A stretch of 64,000 nucleotides of DNA from Haloarcula sp. DT43 (lineage in GTDB: Archaea > Halobacteriota > Halobacteria > Halobacteriales > Haloarculaceae): positions 248,001 through 312,000 of the forward strand of contig NZ_JAYMGZ010000002.1 in NCBI RefSeq assembly GCF_037078405.1, read 5' to 3'. Both the position numbers and the translations under genes were made by a program. Under the pieces are notes generated by a model. The model searched no databases, had not been told where the DNA came from, and saw only the letters and a program-made list of their open reading frames with translations. The first letter of the stretch is position 1. Each line of letters begins with the position of its first letter. This document shows, piece by piece, positions 16,785 through 23,644 of this stretch.

Positions 16785-17279
16785 TCAGCCACGCGCCCGT
16801 ACCCGCCTGTCGAGGACGGCGACCGTACCGGCTGCAAGGAGCGCCACGACGAGTACGGTCGGGTCCGAGGACACGTACAGGCTCGGCGTCGGCGGCCGCC
16901 AGCTCGTGAACGGGTACAGCCAGGCGCTCGCCCGCCCGTCGGCGTACACCCGCAGCCCATCGAGCACCAGCGAGGTGAGGCCGCCGAACGTCACGAGGCC
17001 GAACACCCGTCTCCAGTAGCGTCGCTCGAACGCGACGGCGATAGCTCCGGCGAGCAACAGGACGCCCCCGAGCGTCGAGAGCGGGCCGTAGGTGAACGGA
17101 ACGCCGAGGAGAGCCGCGACCGTCCCATCGTCCAGCACGATTTCGATCTTGACTAAGTCGGGAACCGCTGCGCCGCCCATTCCGACGACCACCCAGCGCC
17201 GGTCAAGCCACGCGACTATCCAGTTCGCCACCGTCAGGAGGATATACGGGACCAGCAGGTGGGTCAGCAGGTCAGCCAT
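16785..17279 (-). CDS. Four-TM membrane protein, DUF457/YdjM-like
   Basis: A 164-aa polytopic protein with hydrophobic stretches at about 8-25, 48-80, 90-108 and 138-158. THLLVPYILL near the N-terminus with a later His/Asp-poor core resembles the YdjM-like metal-dependent membrane hydrolase family, but few of its metal ligands are obvious, so activity is doubtful. It is the last gene of the minus-strand glycosylation operon and overlaps the preceding gene by 8 bp. The role in the operon is unknown. Confidence 0.6.
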   Translation of the reverse strand: MADLLTHLLVPYILLTVANWIVAWLDRRWVVVGMGGAAVPDLVKIEIVLDDGTVAALLGVPFTYGPLSTLGGVLLLAGAIAVAFERRYWRRVFGLVTFGGLTSLVLDGLRVYADGRASAWLYPFTSWRPPTPSLYVSSDPTVLVVALLAAGTVAVLDRRVRARG

Positions 17280-17772
17280 CGCGCGCCTCCAGCGTCCACG
17301 TGTCCCGGTCGAGACGCCAGTGCCGGCCGAACAGCAGCAGGAACCCGACTGCGCCGACGGCCGAGGCCCCGTACTTGTAGAACTCCGCCCACCGGCTGCT
17401 GTTGACGACTTCGACGCGCTCGGCCGTTATCGTCCGACGGGGTTCGAGCGTCCCGTAGACCTGGACGACGCCACCGGGCTCGACGGCCGTCCTCGCTCCG
17501 ATGACCGTGAGGTTGATAGACCTCCCGTCGCTCTCGGCCCTGAGTTCCAGTCCATTTTCGCCGGTCTCTGTGACGGTTCCGATAATCAGGAGTTGCTGCC
17601 CGACGTGCGAGTCGTAGCCGGTAGAGAGGTCCGCGGCGTCCGGGTAGGGTGACCATTCGTCCTCGGTGACCTCCGCGTGGACGAACAGCCCTCCGAGCGT
17701 CAGACACAGGCCGAGTACGACGGCGAGACGAATCCAGACGCGCACACGCTGTCTTCTTTCGGTCGGTGGCAT
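17272..17772 (-). CDS. Membrane-anchored OB-fold-like protein
   Basis: A 166-aa protein with an N-terminal signal anchor (about 13-29), an exterior domain of short beta strands (about 50-125: GQQLLIIGTVTETGENGLEL, VVQVYGTLEPRRTITAERVEV) that reads like an OB-fold of the tOB/NfeD type, and a C-terminal TM helix (about 132-150). It sits between the STT3-like gene and the four-TM protein and overlaps the latter, so it is likely an accessory membrane component of the glycosylation operon. No named family recognised. Confidence 0.6.
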   Translation of the reverse strand: MPPTERRQRVRVWIRLAVVLGLCLTLGGLFVHAEVTEDEWSPYPDAADLSTGYDSHVGQQLLIIGTVTETGENGLELRAESDGRSINLTVIGARTAVEPGGVVQVYGTLEPRRTITAERVEVVNSSRWAEFYKYGASAVGAVGFLLLFGRHWRLDRDTWTLEARDG

Positions 17773-17810
17773 GGTCGTTTCGCTTCGGAATCACGGCGGC
17801 GCGCCCAATC

Positions 17811-20150
17811 TCACTCGACAGTGACGTTCCCGCCGCCGTACACGGTCTGTTCCGGGACTTCGACGGTCGTCTCCTCGCCGTCGGCCGTCGTCACAGTGTA
17901 CGTTCCGGGGTTCGGGACGGTAACGGAGAACTCCCCGTTCCGGGTGGCCGACGTCCGGCGCTCGTAGGCCACTTCCCTGTCCCCGAGGGCGACCGTCGTC
18001 GTGACCGAGACGGTCGAATTCGGGGCCGCAGTACCCTGTATCGTCCCGCCGGGGACGACTGCGAACGCCTTGTGGCTGCCGTCCTCGCTGGCGAAGAGCG
18101 GCCGGTAGTGGGCCAGTCCGTCCACGTCGCCGTTCCGGCTTCCGAACTGTTGGTGGAGCCGGACGTACATCGTGGTCGGCTCCTCGATTTCGGTCCCCGT
18201 CGTCACAACGTAGCCGACGCGTCCCGAAATCTGGCTGTAGGCCGCACCGGGGTCCGTCGTCCCGACGAACGGGCCGTATGTACTGCGAGCGTAGCTGTAG
18301 CTCCGCGACTCGCCGCTGACGAAGTAGTTGTACACGCGGTTCTGCCCCCAGCGGCTGAGGACGTAGTTCTCGGGGTGGTTGATTTCCCGGTCGGCCGCGT
18401 CTGCTTCGATTGTGGTCGCCGCGCCGTACGTCCCGTCCTCGACGAGCACCTGGCTCGTCTTCACCGGGACCTGCACCATCCCGAGGGAACCGAACAACAG
18501 GAACAACACGAGAAGCGACACGACCGCGCGCCTGTCCGGGACGAGCACGTCCCGTAGCCCCTCGTCTTCAGCCGCCAGCACCGGCCGAGCGACGTCGACC
18601 CACGAGGCGACCCAGACGAACGCGAGGCCGGCAAACAGCGCGAGAAACGGGGCGAGTTCGCCGACGAAGCGGACCTGAATCGCGGCGAGGCCCAGCAGCA
18701 CCCAGGCGTAGCTCCCGGCGACGAGCCAGCCGCTCCGGTCCCTGCGCGCGAGGTCGACACCCCACACCATCGCCGGAAGCGCTACGAACAGGGTCAGGCC
18801 GAGCAAAAGCAGGAAGCCGAAGGCGTCGGTGTTGAACAGCCCGTACGTCTCGGCAATCGCGTCGGACCGAAACAGCGTGTCGAGCCGGTTCCTGAACGTT
18901 CCCCACTGTTCTGTGAAGCCAAAGCGGAAGACGACGATTGCCACGATTCCCAGCACGCCGTCGACCGCAGCCAGTTGCCTGACGGTGCCGCCGACGCGTC
19001 TGGCCGCCTCCGCCGTCGCGATGACGACGAGGGTCCCACCAGTCAGCAGCCCCGGCGCGCTGGCCACGAGCGCGGTCTGCCAGCCGACGACTGTGTGGAC
19101 CGCGCCGGCGAGCACAGCACCCAGCCCGACCCCGGCGAGGACCGGTGTCGTCCTGACCAGCGACGACCGGTCGTTCGCCACGTCCAGAAGCGTCTGCCCC
19201 AGGACGACCAGCCCGGCCGGCAGGAGGAGTAACGGTCCCGCCTCCCACGCGAGCACCTGGCCGGCAGTCCCGACCCCGATGCCGACCGCGGCGACCCACG
19301 GCTGTGGTCGGCGAAGCGACGCCCGGTCCGTGACCGTCGTCAGCGCGACCACGAGCGCCAGCGCGGTCAGCGCCAGCCAGGGGTAGTCGAAGGCGTGGTG
19401 GTCTGCGAACCCGAGGCTCGTCCGGAAGGCGTGGCCGGGAACGAACGCCAGAAAGAGGACCGACGCGAGCCCGACGCGCCGGTCGCTGGTGACCCGGACC
19501 GCGAGCAGATAGAGCAGGGCGGCCGTGACGAGCGCCGACACGACGGGGTACCAGGCGAGGACGTGGCCGATGACTTCCTCGCTCCCGCCGAAGAGGCTGG
19601 CCACCCACCAGAGCGTCGCGACCATCAGCGGCTCTCCCTTCGTCACTGCGCTGGGTAGCACGGAGAGCGCCCCGACGTCGGCCGCGCCGCCGGCGTTCGC
19701 CGCGACCTGCTCGACGTAATACCTGTAGTAGTAGGGGTCGTTGCTCGACAGGACGATGTCGCCGCCGCGGTATATCGACCCGACGGCGTACGTTCGGGCG
19801 ACGACCACGACGGCGAGCGCGGCGGCGAGCAGGCCGGTCGCCCGCGCGTCGAGGTCGACGTTCAGGTCGACGTCCAGGGCGTCCCCGACGGCCACGTCGC
19901 GTCCGCTGTCGGTTGCGACGGCGGCGTCGCCGTCGAGCGCGGCCCGTACCGCGTCGGGGTCGGCGACGCGGTACTCGCCGCCGTCTTTCTCGACGATGCC
20001 CGCCGAGACGAGTTCGCCGAACTGGCCCGAATCGACGGGGATGTCGTCGAACGACCACCCGTCCCGTTCGTCGTCGACGGCCAGTGCCGCCGCCGCCGCG
20101 TCCCGTAGCTCGGGCCGGTCGTCGAGCACCGCCCCGGGCGTGTCGCTCAT
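17811..20150 (-). CDS. aglB: STT3/AglB-like oligosaccharyl transferase, atypical
   Basis: A 779-aa protein. Residues about 1-75 look like a small winged-helix-type domain (WSFDDIP...GELVSAGIVEKDGGEYRV). About 13 TM helices follow, with the luminal motifs NDPYYYRYYVEQ (first external loop) and FADHHAFDY (the DHH metal site), then a soluble C-terminal region ending in an Ig-like strand set (about 690-779). These are STT3 features: transfer of a lipid-linked glycan to Asn. However, where WWDYG is expected the sequence reads SRWGQNRVYN, so the acceptor-binding motif is missing. The ATG at 20150 is chosen; the 60 in-frame codons upstream overlap the next gene and look non-coding. It could be a divergent AglB or a paralogue with another acceptor. 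Confidence 0.8.
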   Translation of the reverse strand: MSDTPGAVLDDRPELRDAAAAALAVDDERDGWSFDDIPVDSGQFGELVSAGIVEKDGGEYRVADPDAVRAALDGDAAVATDSGRDVAVGDALDVDLNVDLDARATGLLAAALAVVVVARTYAVGSIYRGGDIVLSSNDPYYYRYYVEQVAANAGGAADVGALSVLPSAVTKGEPLMVATLWWVASLFGGSEEVIGHVLAWYPVVSALVTAALLYLLAVRVTSDRRVGLASVLFLAFVPGHAFRTSLGFADHHAFDYPWLALTALALVVALTTVTDRASLRRPQPWVAAVGIGVGTAGQVLAWEAGPLLLLPAGLVVLGQTLLDVANDRSSLVRTTPVLAGVGLGAVLAGAVHTVVGWQTALVASAPGLLTGGTLVVIATAEAARRVGGTVRQLAAVDGVLGIVAIVVFRFGFTEQWGTFRNRLDTLFRSDAIAETYGLFNTDAFGFLLLLGLTLFVALPAMVWGVDLARRDRSGWLVAGSYAWVLLGLAAIQVRFVGELAPFLALFAGLAFVWVASWVDVARPVLAAEDEGLRDVLVPDRRAVVSLLVLFLLFGSLGMVQVPVKTSQVLVEDGTYGAATTIEADAADREINHPENYVLSRWGQNRVYNYFVSGESRSYSYARSTYGPFVGTTDPGAAYSQISGRVGYVVTTGTEIEEPTTMYVRLHQQFGSRNGDVDGLAHYRPLFASEDGSHKAFAVVPGGTIQGTAAPNSTVSVTTTVALGDREVAYERRTSATRNGEFSVTVPNPGTYTVTTADGEETTVEVPEQTVYGGGNVTVE

Positions 20151-20199
20151 GTGTCCTCTCTTTCCGGTCTGGCGAATAAATCCATCGGGACTCGACGCC

Positions 20200-21195
20200 C
20201 TACTCGTCGGCCGATTCCAGCGCCGCCCGGACGGCCGACTCCACGTCGTGGTCCGGCGTCCACCCCAGCGCGTCGGTCGTTCGGCTGGTGTCGACGGGGA
20301 ACGAGTCGACCAGCGTCTCGTCGTCGCCACGGGGATTCTCGACCAGTTCCACGTCGGCGTCGATGCCGGCGACCTCGGCGGCGACGTCTCGGACCAGTTC
20401 GGCGACGGCGTGGACGCTCGGGTCCTCGTCGCTGGCGATTTCGTACTTCTCGACGCCGGTCTCGCCCGCGTCCAGTTGCGCCAGCAGACGCTCGCAGCTG
20501 TCGACGTAGGCGCGGGCCACGTCCTTGACGTGGATGAAGTTCCGCGACTGCGTGCCCGGTTCGTAGACCGTCAGCGTCTCGCCGGCGAGCGCGCGGTTCA
20601 CGAAGAAGTTGATGACGGTCCCCTTCGAGACCGTCTGTCCGCCGACCTCGTGGCCGCCGTAGAGGTTCGAAATCATGAACTGGTGGGCCGGGAACGCGCC
20701 GTCGGCGTAGTCCTCGATGGCGCGCTCGTTGAGCAGTTTCGTCCGCCCGTACCAGTTCAGCGGGTCCCGCGGGTGCTTAACCGTGATGGGGAACTCCTGC
20801 GGGTCGCCGATGACAGCCATCGAGAACGGGAATATCAGCCCCGCGCCGGTCTTGCGGCAGAACCAGGCGACGTTGTCGGTCCCCTGGACGTTCACCTCGT
20901 AGGCCAGATCCTGGTTCTCCTCGCAGTCGTCGACGCCGGAAATCGCGGCCAGATGCATCACGACGTCAGCGCCGTCTAGCGCCGCTTCCAGGCGGTCCCG
21001 GTTCCGGATGTCGACGTGTTCGACGTCGACATCGCCGACGGACTGCACGGTACCGAGATAGAAGTTGTCGAGGGCGGTCAGCTCCCAGTCGGGGTGGGCC
21101 TGCTGTAGCTCGTGGACGACGCGACTGCCGATGTAGCCCGCAGCGCCGGTGACGGCGACGTGGGGCCGTTCGCTCGTGGTCTCTGTGTCAGTCAT
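20200..21195 (-). CDS. NAD-dependent sugar epimerase/dehydratase A
   Basis: A 331-aa extended short-chain dehydrogenase acting on a nucleotide sugar. It has GAAGYIGSRV (GxxGxxG) near residue 17, the [18 protein letters not shown]-like region, and the catalytic YGRTK near residue 150. The C-terminal half carries the substrate domain (VYEPGTQSRNFIHVKDVARAYVD). It overlaps the preceding epimerase gene by 8 bp and is followed by the STT3-like gene 49 bp on. Whether it is a 4-epimerase or a dehydratase cannot be told from motifs. Confidence 0.87.
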   Translation of the reverse strand: MTDTETTSERPHVAVTGAAGYIGSRVVHELQQAHPDWELTALDNFYLGTVQSVGDVDVEHVDIRNRDRLEAALDGADVVMHLAAISGVDDCEENQDLAYEVNVQGTDNVAWFCRKTGAGLIFPFSMAVIGDPQEFPITVKHPRDPLNWYGRTKLLNERAIEDYADGAFPAHQFMISNLYGGHEVGGQTVSKGTVINFFVNRALAGETLTVYEPGTQSRNFIHVKDVARAYVDSCERLLAQLDAGETGVEKYEIASDEDPSVHAVAELVRDVAAEVAGIDADVELVENPRGDDETLVDSFPVDTSRTTDALGWTPDHDVESAVRAALESADE

Positions 21196-22120
21196 TGGTG
21201 GTGAATCGCTCCGCGAGGTCGCGGACGCCCTCGCGGAGCGTCCACGATGGTTCGAAGCCGGTCCCGCCCAGCCGGTCGAAGTTGACGTGGTAGGACGGGC
21301 CGGGGTGTTCGTCTTCGAGGTAGGTCACGTCGACCGGCGCGACCTCGTCGGCGACGACTTCGGCGACATCCTCTATCTGGTAGTTCCCGGCCGCGGAGCC
21401 GACGTTGTAGACGGGTTCGTCCCACGAGTCGGGGTCGCAGACCGCCTCGGCGTAGGCCCGTGCGGCGTCGCGGACGTGGATGAACGGTCGCCAGTTCGAG
21501 CCGTCGCCGTAGACGGTGAGCGGTCGGTCGGTCAGCGCGCGGAAGACGAAGTAGTTCACGACGAGGTTGAACCGGATGCCCGGCGAGTGGCCGAAATTGG
21601 TGGCCATCCGCAGGGCGGTCCCGGTCATGTCGAACTCCTCGCAGTACTCCCGCAGCAGCGTCTCGGACTCCAGTTTCGTCTCCGCGTAGGGGTTGATGGG
21701 GTCCGGGTCGACCGTCTCGTCGATGTCTGTGCTGGTCGCGCGGCCGTAGACGTTACACGAGGAGGCGAAGACGACGTGTTCGACGCCGAGTTTGCCCGCC
21801 GCGGTCAGGACGTTCTCGGTCCCGTCGTAGTTGATGGCGAACGTCTCCTCGCGGCGGTCGTGGGTGCTCGACGCGCCCGTGATGGCGGCGAGGTGGACGA
21901 CGCGGTCGACGCCCCGCATGGCGCTCTCCACGTCGCCGTACTCGCGCACGTCGCCCCGCCGGAACTCGAGGCCGTCGCCGAGCGTCCCGAGCAGCGCCCG
22001 GGGCGATCCGGTCGAGAGGTCGTCGAAGACCACGACGCTGTCGACGCGGTCGTCCGCGCGCAACAGCGGGACCAGCGCGCTGCCGATGTAGCCACAGGCC
22101 CCGGTGACCAGGATGTCCAC
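21188..22120 (-). CDS. NAD-dependent sugar epimerase/dehydratase B
   Basis: A 310-aa extended SDR protein with GACGYIGSAL at the N-terminus, VVHLAAITGASS, and the catalytic YAETK in NPYAETKLESE near residue 152. The segment VYGDGSNWRPFIHVRDAARAYAEAV is typical of nucleotide-sugar epimerases of the GalE/AglB-locus type. It starts 3 bp after the stop of the sulfoquinovose-synthase-like gene and overlaps the next epimerase, so the three are one translational unit. The substrate is unknown; the neighbours suggest a UDP-hexose or UDP-sulfosugar. Confidence 0.87.
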   Translation of the reverse strand: MDILVTGACGYIGSALVPLLRADDRVDSVVVFDDLSTGSPRALLGTLGDGLEFRRGDVREYGDVESAMRGVDRVVHLAAITGASSTHDRREETFAINYDGTENVLTAAGKLGVEHVVFASSCNVYGRATSTDIDETVDPDPINPYAETKLESETLLREYCEEFDMTGTALRMATNFGHSPGIRFNLVVNYFVFRALTDRPLTVYGDGSNWRPFIHVRDAARAYAEAVCDPDSWDEPVYNVGSAAGNYQIEDVAEVVADEVAPVDVTYLEDEHPGPSYHVNFDRLGGTGFEPSWTLREGVRDLAERFTTND

Positions 22121-22123
22121 GGG

Positions 22124-23296
22124 TCAGTCCTCGCTGAGAACGCCCGGCAGGAAGCGGTCCTCGTGGGCCTCGATGGTGTCGGCGTAGCGCGTCAGCGTCT
22201 CGAAGATGTCGTGGACGCCGTCCTCGAAGGACTGGGACTGCCCGCCGATGAGGTCGGCGTAGCGGTCGTTCTCGATCTCCATCTTGTGGGTCTCGTCCTC
22301 GTCGCGGGGGTTCTCGAAGTGCTCGACGGCCACGTCGAGGTCGAACTCGCTGCCAACGTCTGCGATGGTCTCGGCGATCTCGACGATGCTGATGGCCCGC
22401 GTGACCTGGTTGTAGACCGTCAGCCCGTCAGGCCGGTCGTCGGGGTCGGCGAGCGCGACTTCGGCCAGCCCCTCGACGGCGTCTTCCAGCGAGACGAACG
22501 GCTTGCGCTGCTCGCCCTTGCCGTAGACGGTGACGGGGTAGCCTGCGACCGCCTGCGCACAGAAGCGGTGCGTGACGGTCCCGAAGTAGTAGTCGAAGTC
22601 GAAGCGGGTCTTGAGCCGGTCGTCCGCGCGGGTCTCCTCGGTCTCGGTCCCGTAGACGATGGCCGTGCGCACGTCCGAAATCGGGATGTCGAACTGCGTG
22701 TGGGCCAGCCGCATGTTCTGTGCGTCGAAGCCCTTCGTCGCGTGGTACCAGCTCCCGCCCATGTTGGGGAAGGGCACGTCGTCGCGCTCGCCCTGGTTCT
22801 CCATCACCGCGCCGCCCTCGGGGATGGGGAACTCCGGCGCGCCGTAGACGCCCGTCGTTGTCGTCTCGACGAAGTGGGTGTCGGTGAGGTCGTGTGCTTC
22901 GAGGCCCCACAGGAGGTTCCGGGTCGCCTGGAGGTTGTTGTGCTGGGTGTAGTTGGCCCGCTCGCCGTTTATCTGGGAGTACGGCGCGGAGGGTTGGGCG
23001 GCGGTGTGGACGACCACGTCGGGTTCGTGGACCGCGAGCAGTTCGTCGACGAAGGACTTCTCGGCGAGGTCGCCCTCGACGAACGAGAGGTTCGTCAGGC
23101 CGTGGACCTCCCGGGCCGCGTCGAGGCGTTCGTCGATGCTGGCGACCGGTGTCGCGCTCGTCGCGCCGACGTCCTCGACCCACTCCCGTCGGCCGAAGTT
23201 GTCCACGAGCAGCACTCTGTCGTCCGTCCGGTCGGCGATGCGCAGGGCGGTCGGCCATCCGACGTAGCCGTCGCCGCCAGTGATGAGGATAGTCAT
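22124..23296 (-). CDS. UDP-sulfoquinovose synthase-like (SqdB/Agl3 family)
   Basis: A 390-aa SDR enzyme that closely follows SqdB/SQD1 and archaeal Agl3, which make UDP-sulfoquinovose from UDP-glucose and sulfite. Matches: GGDGYVGWPTAL at the N-terminus, the substrate-side block SAPYSQI...YTQHNNLQATRNLLW near residues 115-140, TTGVYGAPEFPIPEG, the catalytic SWYHATKGFDAQN near 190, and VTVYGKGEQRKPFVSLEDAV. Ordinary epimerases lack the SAPYS/YTQHNN block, so the family call is firm; the exact product is inferred. First gene of the minus-strand glycosylation operon, directly preceded by a perfect palindrome. Confidence 0.87.
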   Translation of the reverse strand: MTILITGGDGYVGWPTALRIADRTDDRVLLVDNFGRREWVEDVGATSATPVASIDERLDAAREVHGLTNLSFVEGDLAEKSFVDELLAVHEPDVVVHTAAQPSAPYSQINGERANYTQHNNLQATRNLLWGLEAHDLTDTHFVETTTTGVYGAPEFPIPEGGAVMENQGERDDVPFPNMGGSWYHATKGFDAQNMRLAHTQFDIPISDVRTAIVYGTETEETRADDRLKTRFDFDYYFGTVTHRFCAQAVAGYPVTVYGKGEQRKPFVSLEDAVEGLAEVALADPDDRPDGLTVYNQVTRAISIVEIAETIADVGSEFDLDVAVEHFENPRDEDETHKMEIENDRYADLIGGQSQSFEDGVHDIFETLTRYADTIEAHEDRFLPGVLSED

Positions 23297-23319
23297 AGTT
23301 ACTCAGATGGTGAGTAACT
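23297..23319. promoter_or_regulatory. Perfect palindrome matching the TrmB motif, upstream of the SqdB-like gene
   Basis: AGTTACTCA (23297-23305) and TGAGTAACT (23311-23319) are exact inverted repeats with a 5-bp spacer. Within it, TACT-N8-GAGTA fits the motif reported for the Halobacterium sugar regulator TrmB (TACT-N7/8-GAGTA). It occupies the 23 bp just before the ATG, between the start and a GATTGATTA TATA-like element further upstream, a position where binding would block or gate a leaderless promoter. Confidence 0.6.
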
Positions 23320-23571
23320 CCGGCGCGTAATCAATCTTCTGTTCAGTTGCGCGGTAGTCCTGTGCCACGTGGGTACCACCGCGTCAGTTCTCGCACCCGA
23401 AATAGTAGCCACGGGGGTATCGTGGCTGATATCTCTCTGATGTATGGCTGTCGGTCAGGCCTGGAGATTCCGCACAGCCTCACCGACCCGCCGGTGCATC
23501 AGCCGGCTCCGGTTCTCGTCGTTTCGCAACCGTTAAAACCGACCCTGTCCTCTACCCTATTGCTATCGCAC
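23320..23571. other. Non-coding stretch before tRNA-Pro
   Basis: No convincing gene on either strand. It holds the TATA-like element of the minus-strand glycosylation operon at its left end, and an AACCGTTAAAACC stretch near 23530 that may be the tRNA promoter region. The stretch from 23297 to 23745 contains only the palindrome, this region and the tRNA. Confidence 0.5.
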
Positions 23572-23644
23572 GGGCCGGTGGGGTAGCCTGGTATCCTTCG
23601 GCCTTCGGGTGGCCGTAACCGCGATTCGAATTCGCGCCGGCCCA
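23572..23644 (+). tRNA. tRNA-Pro (anticodon CGG)
   Basis: A full 73-nt cloverleaf. Acceptor GGGCCGG pairs with CCGGCCC, discriminator A. The D-arm contains GGGT...TCCT. The anticodon stem CGGCC/GGCCG is perfect around loop TTCGGGT, giving anticodon CGG (Pro, codon CCG). The variable loop is TAAC and the T-arm CGCGA-TTCGAAT-TCGCG is perfect. The 3' CCA is not encoded. No intron is seen. It marks the left edge of a stretch of accessory-looking genes. Confidence 0.93.

Follow-up and report, generated by a model that had tools for sequence, protein, structure and literature searches.

The palindrome at positions 23297–23319 of the DNA analysed here, a stretch of 64 000 nucleotides from Haloarcula sp. 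DT43 (the window), serves, with a probability of about 0.82, as the operator of a surface-protein glycosylation regulon, the likely binding protein being REG, a regulator of the TrmB family. The best reading of the data is an undescribed N-glycosylation/S-layer regulon; REG, which is related to TrmB but has no sugar-binding domain, is its probable repressor.

The operator upstream of the SQD operon

Read from the sequence, the arms of the palindrome are exact inverted repeats of 9 bp with a spacer of 5 bases. On the minus strand, the ATG of the SQD gene (23296) starts at the base right after the palindrome. The core reads TACT-N8-GAGTA, or TACTC-N7-GAGTA in its symmetric form. An earlier note on this DNA had given the letters and coordinates of the repeats correctly; it had also rightly placed the TACT-N8-GAGTA core between a TATA-like region and the SQD start codon, in front of a six-gene surface-glycosylation operon led by a UDP-sulfoquinovose-synthase-like gene. 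The operon probably spans positions 16785–23296 of the minus strand. The features of the region are as follows.

23297–23319, no strand assigned: operator palindrome, AGTTACTCA (23297–23305), GATGG, TGAGTAACT (23311–23319)
23298–23318, within the palindrome: full operator core, GTTACTC-N7-GAGTAAC
23328–23334, minus strand: weak TATA-like sequence TTGATTA, 10–16 bp upstream of the operator core
23335–23339, minus strand: BRE-like purine run GAAGA, directly upstream of the TATA-like sequence
22124–23296, minus strand: SQD, UDP-sulfoquinovose-synthase-like SDR enzyme, 390 aa, heading the six-gene operon
21188–22120, minus strand: EPI1, NAD-dependent sugar-nucleotide epimerase/dehydratase, 310 aa (PF01370, E=2e-51)
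20200–21195, minus strand: EPI2, NAD-dependent sugar-nucleotide epimerase/dehydratase, 331 aa (PF01370, E=9e-42)
17811–20150, minus strand: STT3b, second, divergent AglB/STT3-type oligosaccharyltransferase (PF02516 and PF18079)
17272–17772, minus strand: ORF166, probably in the operon
16785–17279, minus strand: YdjM-like membrane protein, probably the last gene of the operon (PF04307, 25.4 bits, under the cut-off of 29)

The promoter architecture is conserved. When 58 orthologous SQD promoters were aligned, an A/T-rich box was found 8–16 bp upstream of the operator, the columns at the BRE-like position (−22 to −18) were rich in A and G, and the end of the palindrome lay 1–4 bp from the SQD ATG. 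Given the usual distance of about 26 bp between the TATA box and the transcription start (PMC4158304), the position of the box in these promoters places the predicted start inside the palindrome. A tRNA-Pro gene (CGG) is present on the plus strand at 23572–23644, about 250 bp upstream of the SQD operator. In two other genomes (loci L031 of G041 and L032 of G130), SQD is preceded by a pair of perfect operators separated by about 250 bp.

The full core GTTACTC-N7-GAGTAAC is rare. The 3.75 Mb Haloarcula genome has two exact sites, one at SQD and one between REG and a microprotein–aglJ unit; tolerating two mismatches adds just two imperfect sites, and a wider operator regulon in this genome was therefore rejected. 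The reversed control pattern has no match in the genome, even with two mismatches. The earlier note had proposed a genome scan for the shorter pattern TACT-N7/8-GAGTA, which turned out to be uninformative: it has 25 matches versus 20 for its reversed control, i.e. the level expected by chance, and was discarded as a genome-wide marker. The consensus from 153 distinct operator sites is roughly TAGTTACTCR-N5-YGAGTAACTA, in which the flanking columns alone are informative because the search pattern itself dictated the core.

The genes of the SQD operon

The nearest solved structures to SQD are those of the plant enzyme SQD1 (1qrr, E=3e-72). Residues 3–362 of 390 align with SQD1, and the catalytic YxxxK motif is kept (YHATK over YHLSK). 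SQD has the SDR fold and YxxxK in common with the UDP-sulfoquinovose synthases Agl3 and SQD1, but the haloarchaeal branch of these enzymes is divergent (PMC4388408), and SQD scores 352 bits against the NF041015 equivalog, under the cut-off of 575; we therefore call it only SQD-like, and its activity is putative. In the alignment made through SQD1, a Val-Tyr pair stands where Agl3 has Glu147-Tyr148, the residues proposed for dehydration, so the chemistry of SQD may differ.

EPI1 lies behind SQD in nearly all of the relatives examined, and EPI2 follows EPI1 in most of them, in some with intervening genes. STT3b scores 119.6 bits against TIGR04154 (cut-off 450), and only some Haloarcula have it downstream of the sulfosugar genes; the canonical AglB is encoded apart from it, at C4:11060–13678. 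ORF166 has no match to Pfam or to curated families. It is kept, like the YdjM-like gene, in one Haloarcula (G131, locus L274), and is missing behind the operon in the other relatives checked. The complete six-gene operon occurs in that one other Haloarcula; the others checked have only SQD-EPI1-EPI2.

The second operator and the regulator REG

The second exact operator lies between the gene for REG and a gene for a microprotein of 37 aa, which is followed by aglJ.

C4:28995–29015 (L030): second operator, exact GTTACTC-N7-GAGTAAC
G000:C4:28072–28920, divergent: REG, TrmB-family regulator, 282 aa, adjoining the second operator
L030:1514–1627 (G000:C4): microprotein at the second operator, with the family motif DGCGCxE(I/V)WEHxSE

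The product of aglJ belongs to the TIGR04182 equivalog (459.6 bits; cut-off 325). aglJ encodes the first glycosyltransferase of S-layer N-glycosylation, and the canonical AglB gene is located about 15 kb from the second operator. Since the same operator stands at SQD and at aglJ, two separate glycosylation loci share it.

Here the start codon of the microprotein lies within the palindrome, and in 53 distinct loci the operator directly adjoins the start of the microprotein, with an ATG after it or a GTG or ATG within it. Control by the operator can be assigned to aglJ with less certainty than to the microprotein, because a TATA-like box of its own stands in front of aglJ, behind the microprotein, and aglJ may have its own promoter. 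The microproteins with this motif (34–59 aa) have no Pfam or NCBIfam match; further copies are present at G000:C1:472108–472136 and C2:62607–62635, making three in this genome. A role for the microprotein as a partner specific to REG was rejected: the pattern also occurs in genomes that lack REG and three times here, and the microprotein thus represents a wider family. In three REG-less genomes (L283 of G031, L286 of G090 and L300 of G190), a microprotein gene of this family ends directly before the SQD ATG, which suggests that in some genomes without REG the microprotein and SQD form an operon and are functionally linked independently of the regulator.

REG contains the winged-helix domain PF01978 (71.8 bits; cut-off 25.6). 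No match to the C-terminal sugar-binding domain PF11495 was found, and the predicted model (mean pLDDT 85), composed of a winged helix, a long helix and a PLD-like domain, stops after the latter; REG is therefore TrmBL2-like and not a sugar-sensing TrmB. Its nearest solved relatives by sequence are TrmBL2 and TrmB, across the DNA-binding and middle parts (TrmBL2, E=2e-20). The fold search also ranks TrmBL2 first (5box, E=4.4e-15), followed by phospholipase-D-type proteins. The overall TM values of 0.41–0.44 leave the domain arrangement uncertain. The HxK catalytic motif was not seen in the REG alignment, and the PLD-like domain is thus probably a sensor.

TrmBL2 of Thermococcales (PDB 5box, 5bpd, 5bqt), the closest solved relative in both sequence and fold, likewise combines a DNA-binding domain with a PLD-like domain and has no sugar domain. 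However, it is described as an abundant, broadly binding chromatin protein, whereas REG is predicted to recognise a strict operator, present at only one to three promoters. Another TrmB-family regulator, the single-domain OxsR of Haloferax volcanii, resembles REG in being haloarchaeal and without a sugar domain, but has a CG-rich motif and a role in oxidative stress (PMC9426492).

Distribution of the operator and REG in the order

The exact operator, GTTACTC-N7-GAGTAAC, was searched in 392 genomes of the order and was found in 115 of them, representing 31 genera and including named Haloarcula species (L183, L185–L189); the reversed control pattern was found in none of the genomes listed. Orthologues of REG are present in 137 genomes and those of SQD in 162. 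All 115 genomes with the operator encode REG, and none of the 255 genomes without REG has an exact copy. This association has a Fisher p of about 1e-77, uncorrected for shared ancestry, a value that overstates independence because the surveyed genomes are related. In addition, gains and losses of REG and SQD tend to coincide, and shared descent therefore accounts for part of the co-occurrence of operator and REG.

The genomes that have SQD without REG break this link, and the comparison within SQD-positive genomes is a stronger test than overall co-occurrence: the exact operator is present in 114 of the 135 with REG and in 0 of the 27 without it. Among 20 examined REG-positive genomes without an exact copy, 19 have one with one or two mismatches at the locus. 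Where REG is encoded, each of the 98 SQD promoters has an operator with at most two mismatches, usually just downstream of the TATA box, and in 90 of them it ends within 6 bp of the ATG. Where it is not, 2 of 20 SQD promoters retain a copy near the ATG at up to three mismatches, one intact-looking and one decayed; in the remainder the best match has at least four mismatches, the usual level in shuffled sequence. Eight REG-less genomes were rechecked and contain only distant paralogues: their best E is about 1e-14, whereas nearly all orthologues reach about 1e-72 or better. The absence of REG from these genomes is therefore genuine. What the sequences establish is thus the existence of the operator, where it is placed and that it is conserved, together with its strict co-occurrence with REG and its disappearance from nearly all of the REG-less genomes examined.

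Two genomes appear to have lost the regulator recently. G150 (L288) encodes no REG but keeps an intact-looking operator with a single mismatch, and the Haloarcula-like G345 (L042) has a REG pseudogene beside one intact remaining operator.

The gene order varies. In many other families the REG gene adjoins SQD-EPI1-EPI2. In several genomes (loci L080, L083, L154 and L155) it is flanked on both sides by an operator, beyond which lie SQD in one direction and the microprotein and aglJ in the other. Three Halomarina-type genomes (L121, L126 and L129) have a third operator about 260–330 bp upstream of a gene with an S-layer glycoprotein domain (PGF-CTERM), positioned between this gene and a TATA box.

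Alternative readings of the palindrome

Another regulator might bind the operator, REG being a mere neighbour under its control. Binding by REG is predicted, and the REG gene, divergently placed behind one operator, could be only a target. We nevertheless consider this improbable, given that the operator vanishes from REG-less genomes even where SQD is retained, and that REG has the DNA-binding domain of a family that reads TACT-type half-sites.

The earlier note had assigned the site to the sugar-sensing TrmB (the orthologue of VNG1451C), which would couple glycosylation to central-carbon status. The operator core does match the motif TACT-N7-8-GAGTA of the TrmB regulon of Halobacterium salinarum (PMC4158304, PMC3794607). 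The orthologue is present in this genome, together with further PF11495 proteins. The recognition-helix region of REG, IPKARVYGVLESL, resembles IPQPRVYDTVRSL of this TrmB, which accounts for the likeness of the operator to a TrmB motif and makes some cross-binding possible. The H. salinarum system and the one described here share the TACTC/GAGTA half-site, its spacing, the winged-helix family and the two-way positional logic relative to the TATA box; they differ in the longer operator arms (GTTACTC/GAGTAAC), the targets and the regulator, REG having no PF11495.

The distribution argues against TrmB. At a presence threshold of E<=1e-80, TrmB (NF047392) was found in 330 of the 392 genomes; when the genome lists were compared by hand, 18 of the 115 operator-bearing genomes lacked it and 233 genomes had it without the operator. 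Nor is an sqd or aglJ promoter named among the 15 ChIP-seq peaks published for TrmB of Haloarcula hispanica (PMC10817205), a species in which the operator is presumed, and across the genome the short motif occurs at the frequency expected by chance. TrmB was rejected as the regulator on its distribution and the published list, and we regard it as a very unlikely binder. What stands of the original proposal is a true operator with half-sites of the TrmB family, whose distribution follows REG and not TrmB; for control by central-carbon status, no supporting evidence was found.

Perfect 9-bp arms around a 5-base loop immediately before a start codon would suggest an RNA hairpin at the 5′ end of the transcript. 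This reading is highly improbable and was rejected: in imperfect operators all 39 arm changes are one-sided and none is compensatory, as fits a DNA site read by a protein; moreover, the arm sequence itself is fixed, and a start inside the palindrome would leave most of it untranscribed. Short inverted repeats are not rare within 64 kb, but a chance palindrome is refuted by the conservation of an identical sequence at an identical place in 31 genera, with no reversed control among the genomes listed.

Proposed mechanism

We infer that REG itself is the protein bound to the operator, that it acts as a repressor, and that a signal reaches it through its PLD-like domain. REG would bind as a dimer, with one winged helix per GTTACTC half-site. 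In this genome the regulon would comprise the SQD-EPI1-EPI2-STT3b operon and the microprotein–aglJ unit. TrmB-family proteins can activate as well as repress. Judged by the position of the operator alone, REG probably represses: the operator comes after the TATA box, at the predicted transcription start, where bound REG would block initiation, and TrmB-family regulators with a site on this side of the TATA box act as repressors (PMC10817205). More speculatively, one dedicated factor and operator may control the sulfosugar genes, aglJ as the initiator of the dolichol-linked glycan, the DGCGC microprotein and, in some genera, the gene for the S-layer protein, with the non-catalytic PLD-like domain sensing a glycan intermediate; we offer this wider scheme only as a tentative possibility.

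Significance for the S-layer

The S-layer N-glycan of Haloarcula is known to carry a sugar of the sulfoquinovose type: in Haloarcula hispanica, whose AglJ is HAH_1214, the S-layer proteins bear an N-linked trisaccharide with 6-sulfoquinovosamine, termed 6-sulfo-QuiN (PMC9943897). SQD is the obvious candidate for the enzyme that makes the sulfosugar, and, with 6-sulfoquinovosamine in these glycans and AglJ, SQD and aglJ would belong to one pathway. No described regulator of archaeal surface-glycosylation genes was found in the literature searched; the adjustment of surface-protein sugars in Archaea is known only by its outcome, for example the salinity-dependent surface glycans of Haloferax (PMC3871713). 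The regulon proposed here would be a case in which a relative of TrmB has moved from carbon metabolism to the control of the cell surface, and it provides a predicted regulator, an operator and targets that are precise enough for testing in tractable Haloarcula.
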